A stretch of DNA of 64,000 nt, taken from Candidatus Jettenia sp. (GTDB taxonomy: Bacteria > Planctomycetota > Brocadiia > Brocadiales > Brocadiaceae). The stretch lies in NCBI GenBank assembly GCA_021650895.1, contig CP091278.1:1331659-1395658 (forward strand), read 5' to 3'. The notes below the pieces were generated by a model. The model worked only from the letters and a program-made list of their open reading frames with translations, made no database searches and was not told the DNA's origin. Numbering within the stretch: the stretch's first letter is position 1; each line of letters begins with the position of its first letter. Both the position numbers and the translations under genes were made by a program. This document shows positions 9,945 through 16,563 of the stretch, in pieces.

Positions 9945-11645
9945 ATGATGAGTATCCGTACAAAACTTATTCTCTTTATAAGCACACTGATAATCATTAT
10001 TGGAGCGCTCAGTTGTCTCTTCTTCCTTGTCAATTCGAAAAAGCAGCAAGAAGATGCGCTGAGAAGGTTCGGTATCTCTCTTATTATGCTGTTTGCCCAG
10101 GATGACGAGGTAAAACATGCGTTGAGTTACACACAACCTGCATTCTTAGACGCCCCTATTAAAAGAATAAAGGCGCTTGATACCGAAGGGGAAATTGGTT
10201 ATTTGCGTATATCAAATACTCAAAAAATTATGGTTGAAGAAAAAGCTCCCTGGATTACTGCTGATATGGAAAAAATTCCCATAGGAGATACTATTCAAAG
10301 CCCTGGCGTATCGTTTACCGATCGGATGTGGACAAGAGGCGGTATACGGTACATTGATTCTTCCCGGAACCCCGATATATTGATCACGAATAACATCGTT
10401 ATCTCTTCAATACATGAATTTTACGATTTTTCACTTCCTATCATTGAGAAACATACATTTTCAGAGGAAGAATTTGCTGCACAGATCTTAGGTGAAGCTG
10501 ATGTCGTTAAAGAAGATAGACACATTCTGGGATTTATACAAATCGGATTATCCCGGCATAAGTTACATGAAAGGATTCATGCAATCGTTCGAAGAAGCAT
10601 TATTCCCATGGGGATAACAATCATTGCAGGAGGAGTGTGTATTACCTTCTTTCTCACCAAATACATTATTTCTCCAATAAAACACATGGCAAATATCACA
10701 CTCGACATCGCAAAAGGAAATCTTACCCGTACGGTAGATATCCGTTCTAAAGATGAAATTGGTCAATTATCTATAAATTTTAATCAAATGACCAAGGCCC
10801 TGAAGAATTCCTATGATGAAAAAGAAAAAATTATGGTACAACTACGGGAGCATATTACTAATTTATTTCAAACAAACAAAGAATTAACGAAAATAAATGA
10901 ACAATTAAACGATGCGCAGGAACGTTTGGTGCGTTCAGAGAAATTGGCTGTCATTGGTAAATTAGCATCGGGCATTGGACATGAGCTGCGAAATCCGCTC
11001 GGTTGCATTAAAAATGCACTTTTCTCTATAAAAAAGAAAACCTTACCTATCGGGATGTTTCCTGATAATCAAAGAATAAACCAATTAATAGAAATTGTTG
11101 AAAAAGAGACTGAACGAAGTATAAAAATTGTAAATGATTTACTAGAATTTTCAAGAACTACAAAACCTACCGTGTCCCCTACAAATATTCATTCTCTTAT
11201 TGAATCTTCTCTTTCAAGACTTACTATCCCTGAAAAAATTAAACGAACTGTGCATATAGAAGAACCTCTACCATTAATAGCAGTTGATGCAACCCAAATC
11301 GAACAGGTATTTATCAACCTGATTCAAAATGCGTGTGATGCTATGCCTATGGGTGGACTCTTAACTATTCATGCACAAAAAGAAAACAGTTCTTTAACCG
11401 TTACCTTTACCGATACCGGATATGGTATTCCCGATACTATTAAAAATAAGATATTTGACCCTCTTTTTACTACAAAGCCGAAAGGGATGGGATTAGGGTT
11501 GGCTATCAGCTTCAATATTATACAAAGACATGGTGGAAATATTGACTTAAAGAGTAAAGAAGGGGAAGGGACCAGTTTTATTGTTACATTACCTACAGAA
11601 AAAGCTAGTGGAACAAAAATCCAGACAACAACATACGTTACCTAA
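9945..11645 (+). CDS. Membrane sensor histidine kinase (HAMP, HisKA, HATPase)
   Basis: 566 residues: a membrane helix at about 7-27, a periplasmic region of about 190 residues, a second helix near 215-235, a HAMP domain (SPIKHMANITLDIAKGNLTR), a coiled linker, then the phosphoacceptor H-box GIGHELRNPLG, the N-box FINLIQNACDAM, G1 DTGYGIP, F-box FDPLFTTKP and G2 GMGLGLAIS. All kinase motifs are intact. It sits between the binding protein and a response regulator on the same strand, forming one signalling operon. Confidence 0.93.
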   Translation: MMSIRTKLILFISTLIIIIGALSCLFFLVNSKKQQEDALRRFGISLIMLFAQDDEVKHALSYTQPAFLDAPIKRIKALDTEGEIGYLRISNTQKIMVEEKAPWITADMEKIPIGDTIQSPGVSFTDRMWTRGGIRYIDSSRNPDILITNNIVISSIHEFYDFSLPIIEKHTFSEEEFAAQILGEADVVKEDRHILGFIQIGLSRHKLHERIHAIVRRSIIPMGITIIAGGVCITFFLTKYIISPIKHMANITLDIAKGNLTRTVDIRSKDEIGQLSINFNQMTKALKNSYDEKEKIMVQLREHITNLFQTNKELTKINEQLNDAQERLVRSEKLAVIGKLASGIGHELRNPLGCIKNALFSIKKKTLPIGMFPDNQRINQLIEIVEKETERSIKIVNDLLEFSRTTKPTVSPTNIHSLIESSLSRLTIPEKIKRTVHIEEPLPLIAVDATQIEQVFINLIQNACDAMPMGGLLTIHAQKENSSLTVTFTDTGYGIPDTIKNKIFDPLFTTKPKGMGLGLAISFNIIQRHGGNIDLKSKEGEGTSFIVTLPTEKASGTKIQTTTYVT

Positions 11646-11697
11646 AAATTGATGGCAATTATGGCTTTTCTTAAAACTTAATACACAGATACCTAAT

Positions 11698-12846
11698 ATG
11701 GCATATGAAGCATTGAATAAAATTTGTATCATGCTGGTGGATGATGACCTCTCCGTCCTGCAAACAACTGCAATAATTTTAGAAGAAGAAGGCTATACTA
11801 TTGTAACTTGCTGTGGAGGAAAAGAGGCTATCGGTAAACTGAATGACACGATCTTTACGGTAATACTCGACATCAATATGCCGGATATGTCTGGCCTGGA
11901 AGTTTTTGAGATTATGAAATCGAGAAACCAATACCTTCCCATCATTTTTCATACAGGCTATGGTGAGAAAGAAAAAAGAACTGATATCCGTAAACATTTT
12001 CGGCCACATGCTTATGTGGTTAAGGGCAGCGACCCGGAGCAATTACTCGATACCGTTGCTGGTGCAGTCGAATCGTACAAGAATATCCTGGAAAATGTTA
12101 CCCTAAATAATGCCCTTAAGGAGCGAAACGCATTAATTGAGGAATTCAACCGTTCCCTGGAAGATAAAGTAAAAAGGCAGGTGGAAGAAATTCAAAGAAC
12201 AAGCCGCCTGAAAAGGTATGTCTCTCCGCAAATTGCTGACACTATCATCTCGAGCGGAAGCGATAAATATCTAATTAGCGCCCGAAAATTATTGACAATA
12301 TGTTTTGCCGATCTAAAAGGTTTTACCGAAGCCAGTGAGAGCATGGAACCAGAGGATACAGTAAACTTATTAAATGAATATTTCGCAGAGATGACCACCA
12401 TCATTTTCAGGTACGGAGGTACACTTGATAAATTCATGGGAGATGGTATCCTTATTTTTTTTGGTGATCCTATCTACTGTGACGATCATGATGAAAAGGC
12501 AGTCAGAATGGCCATCGATATGCGCGATAAAGTACAGGAATTACGGAAAAATTGGCTTAAGAATGGCTGCAATATTGATATATGCTTCGGTATAAATACC
12601 GGATATGTCACGGTTGGAAATGTCGGATCATCAATCCAAATGAACTACACCGTTATAGGCCACAGGGTTAATATTGCCCACAGACTCCAATTGGAAGCGA
12701 AAGCGGGGCAAATCTTAATCACAGCACGTACACTTGCGGGAATAGAAAATCTGGTAGAAACAGAGGAAATAAAAAATGTAAAACGCAAGGGGATTATTAA
12801 GCCTATAAATGTATATAATGTAATAAGATACAAAAAGATTCTATAA
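11698..12846 (+). CDS. Response regulator with class III adenylate/guanylate cyclase output domain
   Basis: 382 residues. The receiver domain (about 9-125) has the acidic pocket MLVDDD and phosphoacceptor LDINMPDMSG. A coiled segment (about 135-170) leads to a class III nucleotide cyclase catalytic domain (about 190-370), with metal-binding aspartates in CFADLKGFT and KFMGDGILIFFG and the transition-state region NTGYVTVGNVGS. The position that usually reads IGDxVN reads IGHRVN, so the purine-specifying residue differs from textbook adenylate cyclases and cAMP versus cGMP is uncertain. Likely target of the kinase 52 bases upstream. Confidence 0.92.
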   Translation: MAYEALNKICIMLVDDDLSVLQTTAIILEEEGYTIVTCCGGKEAIGKLNDTIFTVILDINMPDMSGLEVFEIMKSRNQYLPIIFHTGYGEKEKRTDIRKHFRPHAYVVKGSDPEQLLDTVAGAVESYKNILENVTLNNALKERNALIEEFNRSLEDKVKRQVEEIQRTSRLKRYVSPQIADTIISSGSDKYLISARKLLTICFADLKGFTEASESMEPEDTVNLLNEYFAEMTTIIFRYGGTLDKFMGDGILIFFGDPIYCDDHDEKAVRMAIDMRDKVQELRKNWLKNGCNIDICFGINTGYVTVGNVGSSIQMNYTVIGHRVNIAHRLQLEAKAGQILITARTLAGIENLVETEEIKNVKRKGIIKPINVYNVIRYKKIL

Positions 12847-14639: not shown

Positions 14640-14950
14640 GAAGAAAACCCAGTAGAGTCTCTCACAAAGGAGACAAAAGCTGAATAAATTTATTCTGGTG
14701 ACTAATACAGAGATTCTAAAAGGTATACAAGGGGACAATCTTCTGTGGAGATAAACTTTAAATGGGCTAAGAATCCTGCGGCAGCAGCCCCTATCTTGCT
14801 AAAGAACCCAAGAGGATTGCAGTATTAGGATTCGTTTATCTGGTAGCTCTTATGGTGTATATTTTCATGCAACGGCAGATAAGGCAGATAAGATAGTCAC
14901 TGAAAAGGGCACAGAAGAGCATACCAGGTAATAAGGGGCTTACCGATAAT
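14640..14950 (+). pseudogene. Degenerate IS1634-like transposase C-terminal remnant
   Basis: Reading on the plus strand across at least one frameshift gives KFILVTNTEILKGIQGD, then NFKWAKNPAAAAPILLKNP, then KRIAVLGFVYLVALMVYIFMQ. The order and spacing match the C-terminal third of IS1634-family transposases, where a [A/V]TN strand, a RFLK-type segment, and a hydrophobic LGF-[LV]YL-ALLVY block occur. Stops and frameshifts show it is dead. No intact copy is in the window. Confidence 0.6.
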
Positions 14951-15050
14951 CCAATAGGGAGAGTATTGTTTCAGAATATGAATGGAATATCTGTGGTTGT
15001 TATTTCCCTGGGTAAATCTCTCCTTAAGTAGATTACTCATTTTACACAAC

Positions 15051-15241
15051 TACTACACTGTCAACTTAATTTACCATAATAGACTCTCTCGTATGTGTCA
15101 TTGCGAGGGGTATTTTCCCGAAGTAATCTCTTTTGAAATGTCCAGGGGGATTGCTTCGGACAATACCCTCGCAATGACACAGCCCCATGCAGTTGAACCG
15201 ATACAAATCGTATTATCATGAATTATATTGACAGTGTACTA
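15051..15241. repeat. Nested inverted repeat with palindromic core
   Basis: Outer arms TACTACACTGTCAACTTAAT (15051) and the complement of the segment ending TTGACAGTGTACTA (about 15241) match over about 23 bp with four mismatches. Inside, 15095-15180 is an inverted repeat with ends GTGTCATTGCGAGG and complement, plus inner AAGTAATC/GATTGCTT arms. It is non-coding and resembles a small MITE or repetitive palindrome. Confidence 0.65.
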
Positions 15242-15303
15242 CATACGGATATCCTGAATTATTTATTTCGCCTTTGATGCCACAATCTATCAACCATTAA
15301 AAA

Positions 15304-16563
15304 CTATTTCTTCTGTTTAAGAAGAAAAATCTCTCGAATATCAGGTAAAATAATTGAAATTTTAGTATACTTCCCTTCAATACTATCAATAGTAAGTTTA
15401 CCACCGTGGTCATTCACAATTGCATGAGACAGATACTTAGCCCTAATCCCATTCTCTGTTATATAGGAAGGTATGCCAGTACCGTGATTATAAAAAGTAG
15501 TTTTTACAAATTTATGCTCATGTATAGTTATTTCTTCAGCCAGGATCTCGATAATTTTATTACCATGTGATTTTGGATATTTTTGGTTCAGGGCATATCG
15601 TGCATTACTGATAAGATTCATGAAGACTTCCTGAATTTCTTGGAGATTTACGAGTATTTTTGGCAAATTATTAGGAATATCCAGCTTTATTTTTATACAA
15701 TCTTTTTGTAATTGTGTTCCTGTAAGGGTAAGAATATCAGATACTATTTCATGTATACTGGCCATAGTTTTCTCTTTTACATCACTGCCTCGAGCAAAAG
15801 AAAGAAGTTTGCTAACGATATTCGCTATGCGGTCTCCTTCCTTGATAATCCGGCTAGCAAGATTTTTTTCTCTGCTTCCTTCACGGCTTTTATTCAATAA
15901 AATCTGGGCACAATTAATAACACCCGTTATGGGATTATTGATTTCGTGGGCAACACCTGTTGCTAGTTCACCTAAGAGTGCTAAATGTCTCGATCGTTCA
16001 GTATCCTTTTCAAGCTTTACCCTTTCAACCATATCTAAAGCAGTGCCTAAGATACCAATAATGTCCCCCTTTTCGTCTTTTACAGGAACCTTAATTGTAT
16101 AGAAAATTAATTCCTGTCCATCTTTCCAATATCTCCGTTCTTTATCTTTTCTTTGTCCCGATCTTATAACTTCCTTATCATATTCTCTATACTCTTTAGC
16201 AATATCCTTAGGGAAAAAATCGTAGTCCGTTTTACCTACAATTTCCTCTGTTTTTATATGTAAGTATCTGGCAAAGTTCTCATTACAAAATAGGTAGATT
16301 GATCTTTTATCCTTATAGAATATTTTTACTGGAAGATTCTCATGGAGTAATTTGCATTTATTTTCACTTATAAGGAACACTTCCTTTTTATATTTCTGCG
16401 TTTCCCATATATTTTGATATTCATATAATTTATTAATTATTTTCTTAATACTTTCAGTGAATTCATCTGGAACGTTATTACTATTTTCTGCTAATAATTT
16501 TTCAGTCTGCTTGAGCAATTTGTTAGTTTGCTTAAACTCATTTTGTGTACAAGCATCATTCAT
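15304..16563 (-). CDS. PAS-domain sensor histidine kinase with a damaged ATP-binding lid
   Basis: 419 residues, no membrane helix. An N-terminal coiled region and a PAS domain (about 70-185; FYKDKRSIYLFCNENFARYL, GKTDYDFFP) precede the H-box GVAHEINNPITG (H206) and the N-box FMNLISNARYAL. The G1-type motif is NHGTGIP, but the F-box is missing and the frame then reads ENGIRAKYLSHAIVNDHGG. The adjacent frame of the same DNA encodes MGLGLSIC, the expected G2 box, just before HAIVNDHGG. A deletion that removed the F-box plus a 2-base insertion (TC) after TGT would explain this. ATP binding is therefore doubtful. Confidence 0.85.
   Translation of the reverse strand: MNDACTQNEFKQTNKLLKQTEKLLAENSNNVPDEFTESIKKIINKLYEYQNIWETQKYKKEVFLISENKCKLLHENLPVKIFYKDKRSIYLFCNENFARYLHIKTEEIVGKTDYDFFPKDIAKEYREYDKEVIRSGQRKDKERRYWKDGQELIFYTIKVPVKDEKGDIIGILGTALDMVERVKLEKDTERSRHLALLGELATGVAHEINNPITGVINCAQILLNKSREGSREKNLASRIIKEGDRIANIVSKLLSFARGSDVKEKTMASIHEIVSDILTLTGTQLQKDCIKIKLDIPNNLPKILVNLQEIQEVFMNLISNARYALNQKYPKSHGNKIIEILAEEITIHEHKFVKTTFYNHGTGIPSYITENGIRAKYLSHAIVNDHGGKLTIDSIEGKYTKISIILPDIREIFLLKQKK

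Follow-up and report, generated by a model that had tools for sequence, protein, structure and literature searches.

A histidine kinase gene of Candidatus Jettenia that lost its ATP lid and regained its reading frame probably encodes a protein that regulates related kinases, and is less likely to be a kinase gene or a fresh pseudogene

To our knowledge, few bacterial pseudo-histidine kinases with an intact acceptor histidine have been described, and RetS of Pseudomonas aeruginosa is the best studied of them. RetS lacks G-boxes, does not autophosphorylate, retains an HExxT motif and acts on the kinase GacS; it lowers GacS signalling in that it takes phosphoryl groups, acts as a phosphatase and blocks autophosphorylation (PMC5992135). 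The block of GacS autophosphorylation is exerted via a heterodimeric DHp interface (PMC12148439). DivL of Caulobacter crescentus has the order PAS-DHp-CA and has lost kinase activity with retention of the fold (PMC4211667; PDB 4q20), and in ChrS-fs of Corynebacterium glutamicum a frameshift in the CA domain gave rise to a signalling-competent pseudokinase beside a paralogous kinase (PMC9491836). The literature on motif-level surveys of degenerate kinases and on Jettenia kinases yielded nothing specific. In the cited natural precedents, the step that cost the kinase its ATP site and restored its fold is not visible. The Jettenia gene described here joins this small class of pseudo-histidine kinases with an origin that is unusually legible.

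The gene lies in a window of 64,000 nucleotides, the whole stretch of DNA that was analyzed, from the genome of a Ca. Jettenia (G000), an anammox planctomycete with a single contig of 3.82 Mb. It was compared with both congeners in our genome collection, Candidatus Jettenia ecosi J2 (G001; SULG01000024.1) and a second species, G002. The gene is an orphan, with no response regulator adjacent on the same strand; a kinase/receiver-cyclase pair at 9945-12846 is on the other strand, ~2.5 kb away. Just downstream of the gene, at 15048-15244 of the window, is a MITE-like element of ~195 bp with imperfect 31-nt terminal inverted repeats, of which there are about 40 copies in G000 at 95-98% identity; neither G001 nor G002 has the surrounding stretch (14889-15244) at the orthologous place. 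The features of the gene are as follows.

15304..16563, minus strand: whole gene, coil-PAS-HisKA(DHp)-degenerate HATPase_c, 419 aa
16357..16563, minus strand: N-terminal coil, residues 1-69; split by an IS element in G002, with an in-frame deletion in G001
16009..16356, minus strand: PAS sensor domain, residues 70-185 (Pfam PAS_4, 60.5 bits)
15778..16008, minus strand: HisKA/DHp, residues 186-262 (Pfam HisKA, 49.1 bits)
15946..15948, minus strand: phospho-acceptor His206 in the H-box VAHEINNP (HExxN motif)
15583..15642, minus strand: N-box helix QEIQEVFMNLISNARYALNQ, intact
15469..15489, minus strand: G1 box NHGTGIP, its adenine-binding Asp changed to Asn359 in 3/3 species
15450..15456, minus strand: junction of the 44-bp deletion (F-box and ATP lid lost), between ITE and the G2 DNA
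15432..15449, minus strand: G2-box DNA (GLGLSI), out of frame; the in-frame reading is ..GIRAKY
15427..15431, minus strand: TGTCT, which holds the frame-restoring 2-base insertion
15340..15426, minus strand: last helix and two strands of the CA domain (HAIVNDHGG...IILP), again in the ancestral frame

The preliminary description of this locus reported NGIRAKYL followed by SHAIVNDHGG, with GLGLSI encoded one frame over, and both ORF and DNA read as stated. The 419-residue frame contains ...YNHGTGIPSYITENGIRAKYLSHAIVNDHGGKL..., and GGATTAGGGCTAAGTATC (15449 down to 15432) encodes GLGLSI one frame over, with TGT-CT-CATGCA as the next bases. Where the family alignment has DHGTGIPAHIRDKVMNPFFTTKPxGKGTGLGLSISHGII, the protein has NHGTGIPSYITENGIRAKY, a 14-residue gap and LSHAIV, and so the F-box is indeed missing. 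The spacing from ITE to GLGLSI has fallen from 48 nt in the family to 4 nt (44 bp lost), which is why the GLGLSI DNA is one frame off, and the two bases added in TGTCT bring the helix and strands after it into frame again, for a net change of -14 codons. The insertion has several equivalent placements, TC after TGT being one. Deletion and insertion may have come in either order, and possibly as one event. The out-of-frame G2 DNA is genuinely homologous and no chance resemblance: up to 16/18 of its bases (median 14) agree with the in-frame G2 DNA of intact paralogues, against only 11/18 for the best 18-mer elsewhere in the lesioned gene; GGATTAGGGCTAA is an exact match common to the gene and the paralogues L122 and L141.

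The ATP site is in fact broken twice because, besides this lesion, the Asp of the G1 box (residue 359, now NHGTG in place of DxGxG) is Asn in all three Jettenia species and Asp in the 60 intact loci described below, a change that the preliminary description does not mention. Nucleotide binding in HisKA-type kinases is defined by the F-box, the lid, the G2 glycines and the G1 Asp. None of the corresponding motifs is whole in the lesioned protein, from which the F-box and lid are absent and in which the G2 box (GxGLGL) survives only as the DNA remnant. Intact Jettenia and other Brocadiaceae PAS-HisKA-HATPase paralogues (e.g., L120, L122, L140, L153) have the same domain order, ~60-62% identity overall and D(H)GxGxP, PFFTTK and GTGLGL all present. 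Pfam HATPase_c scores 21.4 and 18.0 bits, below the cut-off of 26.4, compared with 67.8 in an intact relative. Much else is retained: the N-box reads VFMNLISNARYALNQ, 29/31 invariant CA positions are kept, and the H-box, which had been called intact, is VAHEINNPITG in 3/3 species, including the phospho-acceptor H206 and the HE motif (HEINN).

Syntenic orthologues in both congeners carry the same lesion, at amino acid identities of 91% (G002) and 87% (G001). They lie between collinear blocks on either side and have, besides the lesion, their own species-specific point changes. The paralogous loci that we read come from G000, G001, G002, G005 and three other genomes; G1, F and G2 motifs are intact in 60/60 of them, and the lesion was found in 0/60. 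The F-box and G2 box are thus where homologues would be expected to have them, and the proposal of a deletion with a compensating 2-base insertion is backed by these loci as well as by the three species that share the product. In a 62-row tree the lesioned trio groups together with 100/100 support on a stem of 0.45, nested in a subclade of 11 rows (100/99) in which every other member is intact. Since all 60 loci are intact and the trio is nested among intact kinases, the lesion is derived and arose on the stem of the trio, before the species split. The genome of the window has ~14 close paralogues of the gene, at 53-60% identity. The lesioned copy is the sole member of its subclade there, the intact L120, L121, L122, L140 and L141 having no counterpart in that genome. 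The natural birth of a pseudokinase can here be assigned to a branch of a tree. What was lost can be read from the out-of-frame G2 DNA, retention of the product is documented by the three species, and the same cell offers ready-made controls in the form of a dozen or more intact paralogues. A further kinase paralogue, L109:468-725 (G000:C1:854454-856310), has a perfect 129-bp (43-codon) in-frame tandem duplication in its catalytic domain, which is found in G000 only and not in the orthologues of G001 and G002.

Constraint on the lesioned gene is the weakest of all the orthologue groups that we compared, and is strongly relaxed. Its dN/dS between species (NG86) is 0.44-0.48, and every other orthologue pair computed gave 0.04-0.37. 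The changes since the split number 54 nonsynonymous and 30 synonymous, where a neutral simulation, transition-biased and drawn from the genome's own spectrum at four-fold sites, expects 56:25 (P=0.14). We therefore did not take the NG86 values alone as purifying selection; as that ratio is compatible with neutrality, we used indels, the placement of substituted sites and a codon likelihood ratio instead.

These findings bear on the possibility that the gene is a slowly decaying pseudogene, in which the deletion left the kinase without a use and luck and a short divergence (dS about 0.1) account for the open frame. The highest dN/dS of the family, the fit of its substitution ratio to neutrality under one model, a lack of premature stops in the shared codons of the three species that is not significant under the neutral simulation (P=0.06), independent 5' lesions in 2/3 species and the long stem branch all speak for decay. 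Against this, no stops, uncompensated frameshifts or indels have arisen in the 350 codons shared by the three species since their split. In the non-coding DNA on its flanks, 35 indels were counted for 214 substitutions, from which ~14 would be expected for the gene's 84 substitutions, an extrapolation from AT-rich non-coding DNA that may be more indel-prone. The 50 amino acid changes shun conserved positions: they fall at family-variable ones (mean entropy 1.55 vs 1.07 under neutrality, with 0 of 4000 draws equal), and the replacement residues are already found in paralogues in 70% of cases vs 46% (P=0.0005). With the gene taken as a whole, a codon model, whose result consists of likelihoods only, rejects omega=1 (2dlnL 6.99, P about 0.008), where intact orthologue groups give 33-82.

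Purifying selection, for which the preliminary description proposed to test the two halves of the gene, was borne out by likelihood in the CA domain (2dlnL 4.74, P about 0.03), was borderline in DHp (3.68) and was not found in PAS (0.05, omega=1 not rejected); the entropy effect at substituted sites holds in each of the three taken separately. Moreover, the restoring 2-bp insertion was fixed, though the unrestored frame stops within a few codons. We therefore consider slow decay unlikely. A pseudogene confined to a single strain and of recent origin is ruled out, as the lesion is common to three species. The two outcomes first put forward for this gene, a kinase-dead signalling protein and an early pseudogene, fare differently: the former is favored, and the latter is disfavored because the lesion is older than the species split, no later change has closed the frame and the changes respect family conservation. 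A fair summary of the sequence comparisons would be weak but real constraint on what appears to be a translated protein.

Decay may still be under way, above all in the copies with a damaged 5' end. The orthologue in G002 (L098; G002:C4 near 69070-70220) has an IS5-type element of 1,151 bp inserted near codon 20, flanked by a 9-bp target duplication, CAAGCAGAC; the next in-frame ATG beyond it, at ~codon 55, would still yield PAS-DHp-CA. The orthologue in G001 has lost ~64 N-terminal codons through an in-frame deletion beside the original start. With both 5' ends damaged, either the N-terminal coil is dispensable or decay has begun in these two lineages.

The reading that we favor, with somewhat better than even confidence and by analogy with RetS, is that the product is a pseudo-histidine kinase that acts through its DHp domain on sister kinases or on their response regulators. 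The comparisons show that one PAS-HisKA-HATPase paralogue in the ancestor of the three Ca. Jettenia species lost its F-box and lid through the 44-bp deletion and regained its frame through the 2-bp insertion, with the G1 Asp also replaced by Asn, and that the reading frame and most family-conserved positions have been maintained afterwards. Going by what is known of the family, the protein would neither bind nor hydrolyze ATP and would therefore not autophosphorylate. It may instead, with less certainty, pair with paralogous kinases, which it would block or which would phosphorylate it in trans, and/or dock with and dephosphorylate their response regulators, and its PAS domain may still sense a signal. 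We propose action via DHp because the dimerization and phosphotransfer helices, His206 and HExxN are intact and highly similar to those of the sister kinases. DHp identity is 81-88% to intact members of the subclade to which the gene belongs, falls to about 70-82% for most paralogues outside it, and reaches 88% to intact paralogues over residues 193-260. An AlphaFold2 model of the protein retains the CA sandwich and is poor only at residues 371-375 (pLDDT <50), although this retained fold is perhaps partly imposed, since the alignment included intact relatives; it matches the CA domain of LvrB with Z 22.6 and an rmsd of 1.5 Å over 148 residues. As dimerization helices this similar could let one dead member pair with many live ones, it is conceivable, although we hold this only tentatively, that the dead member became fixed because the large paralogous kinase family had in it a common inhibitor or phosphatase hub.

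The parallel with RetS lies in a degenerate HATPase domain without G-boxes beside an intact H-box phosphatase motif (PDB 6dk7, 7n0e). RetS, however, is a membrane-bound hybrid with REC domains, whereas the Jettenia protein is PAS-HisKA-HATPase only, with no Pfam match to Response_reg. Descent from RetS is not suggested, the nearest relatives of the lesioned gene being intact anammox kinases. ChrS-fs differs in that it arose in laboratory evolution and kept its foreign tail, while in Jettenia the frame was restored by a second mutation, and all three species of the genus share the form.

DivL raises the alternative of a scaffold or sensor only, which would bind a response regulator or partner with no phospho-chemistry at His206. 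DivL, without kinase and phosphatase activity, still controls CckA (PMC4211667), and the Jettenia protein keeps the same architecture. The AlphaFold2 model also matches DivL 4q20, with Z 18.9 and an rmsd of 4.5 Å over 205 residues. DivL, however, has kept its ATP lid and changed its acceptor His to Tyr, whereas here the lid is gone and His206 and HExxN are kept in 3/3 species, and a role as a mere scaffold appears rather improbable to us.

A pseudo-histidine kinase that works through DHp is also preferred over a weak kinase in which the rewritten NGIRAKYLS serves as a substitute lid and some ATP binding and autophosphorylation are left. The intact N-box, the remaining CA core and the predicted persistence of the CA fold are consistent with residual activity, but the protein has neither F-box nor lid, has lost the G2 glycines and has Asn for the G1 Asp, and with 0/60 intact relatives lacking any of these, such activity is very unlikely. 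A sequencing or assembly error in the genome of the window, for which nothing speaks beyond the oddity itself, can be dismissed, as the separately assembled congeners show the same lesion with species-specific substitutions.

Elsewhere in the kinase family, matches in G032:C48 (L013) and G032:C28, from another genus (g11), equal two G000 kinase loci in score and identity, and probably represent binning contamination, or else recent transfer.
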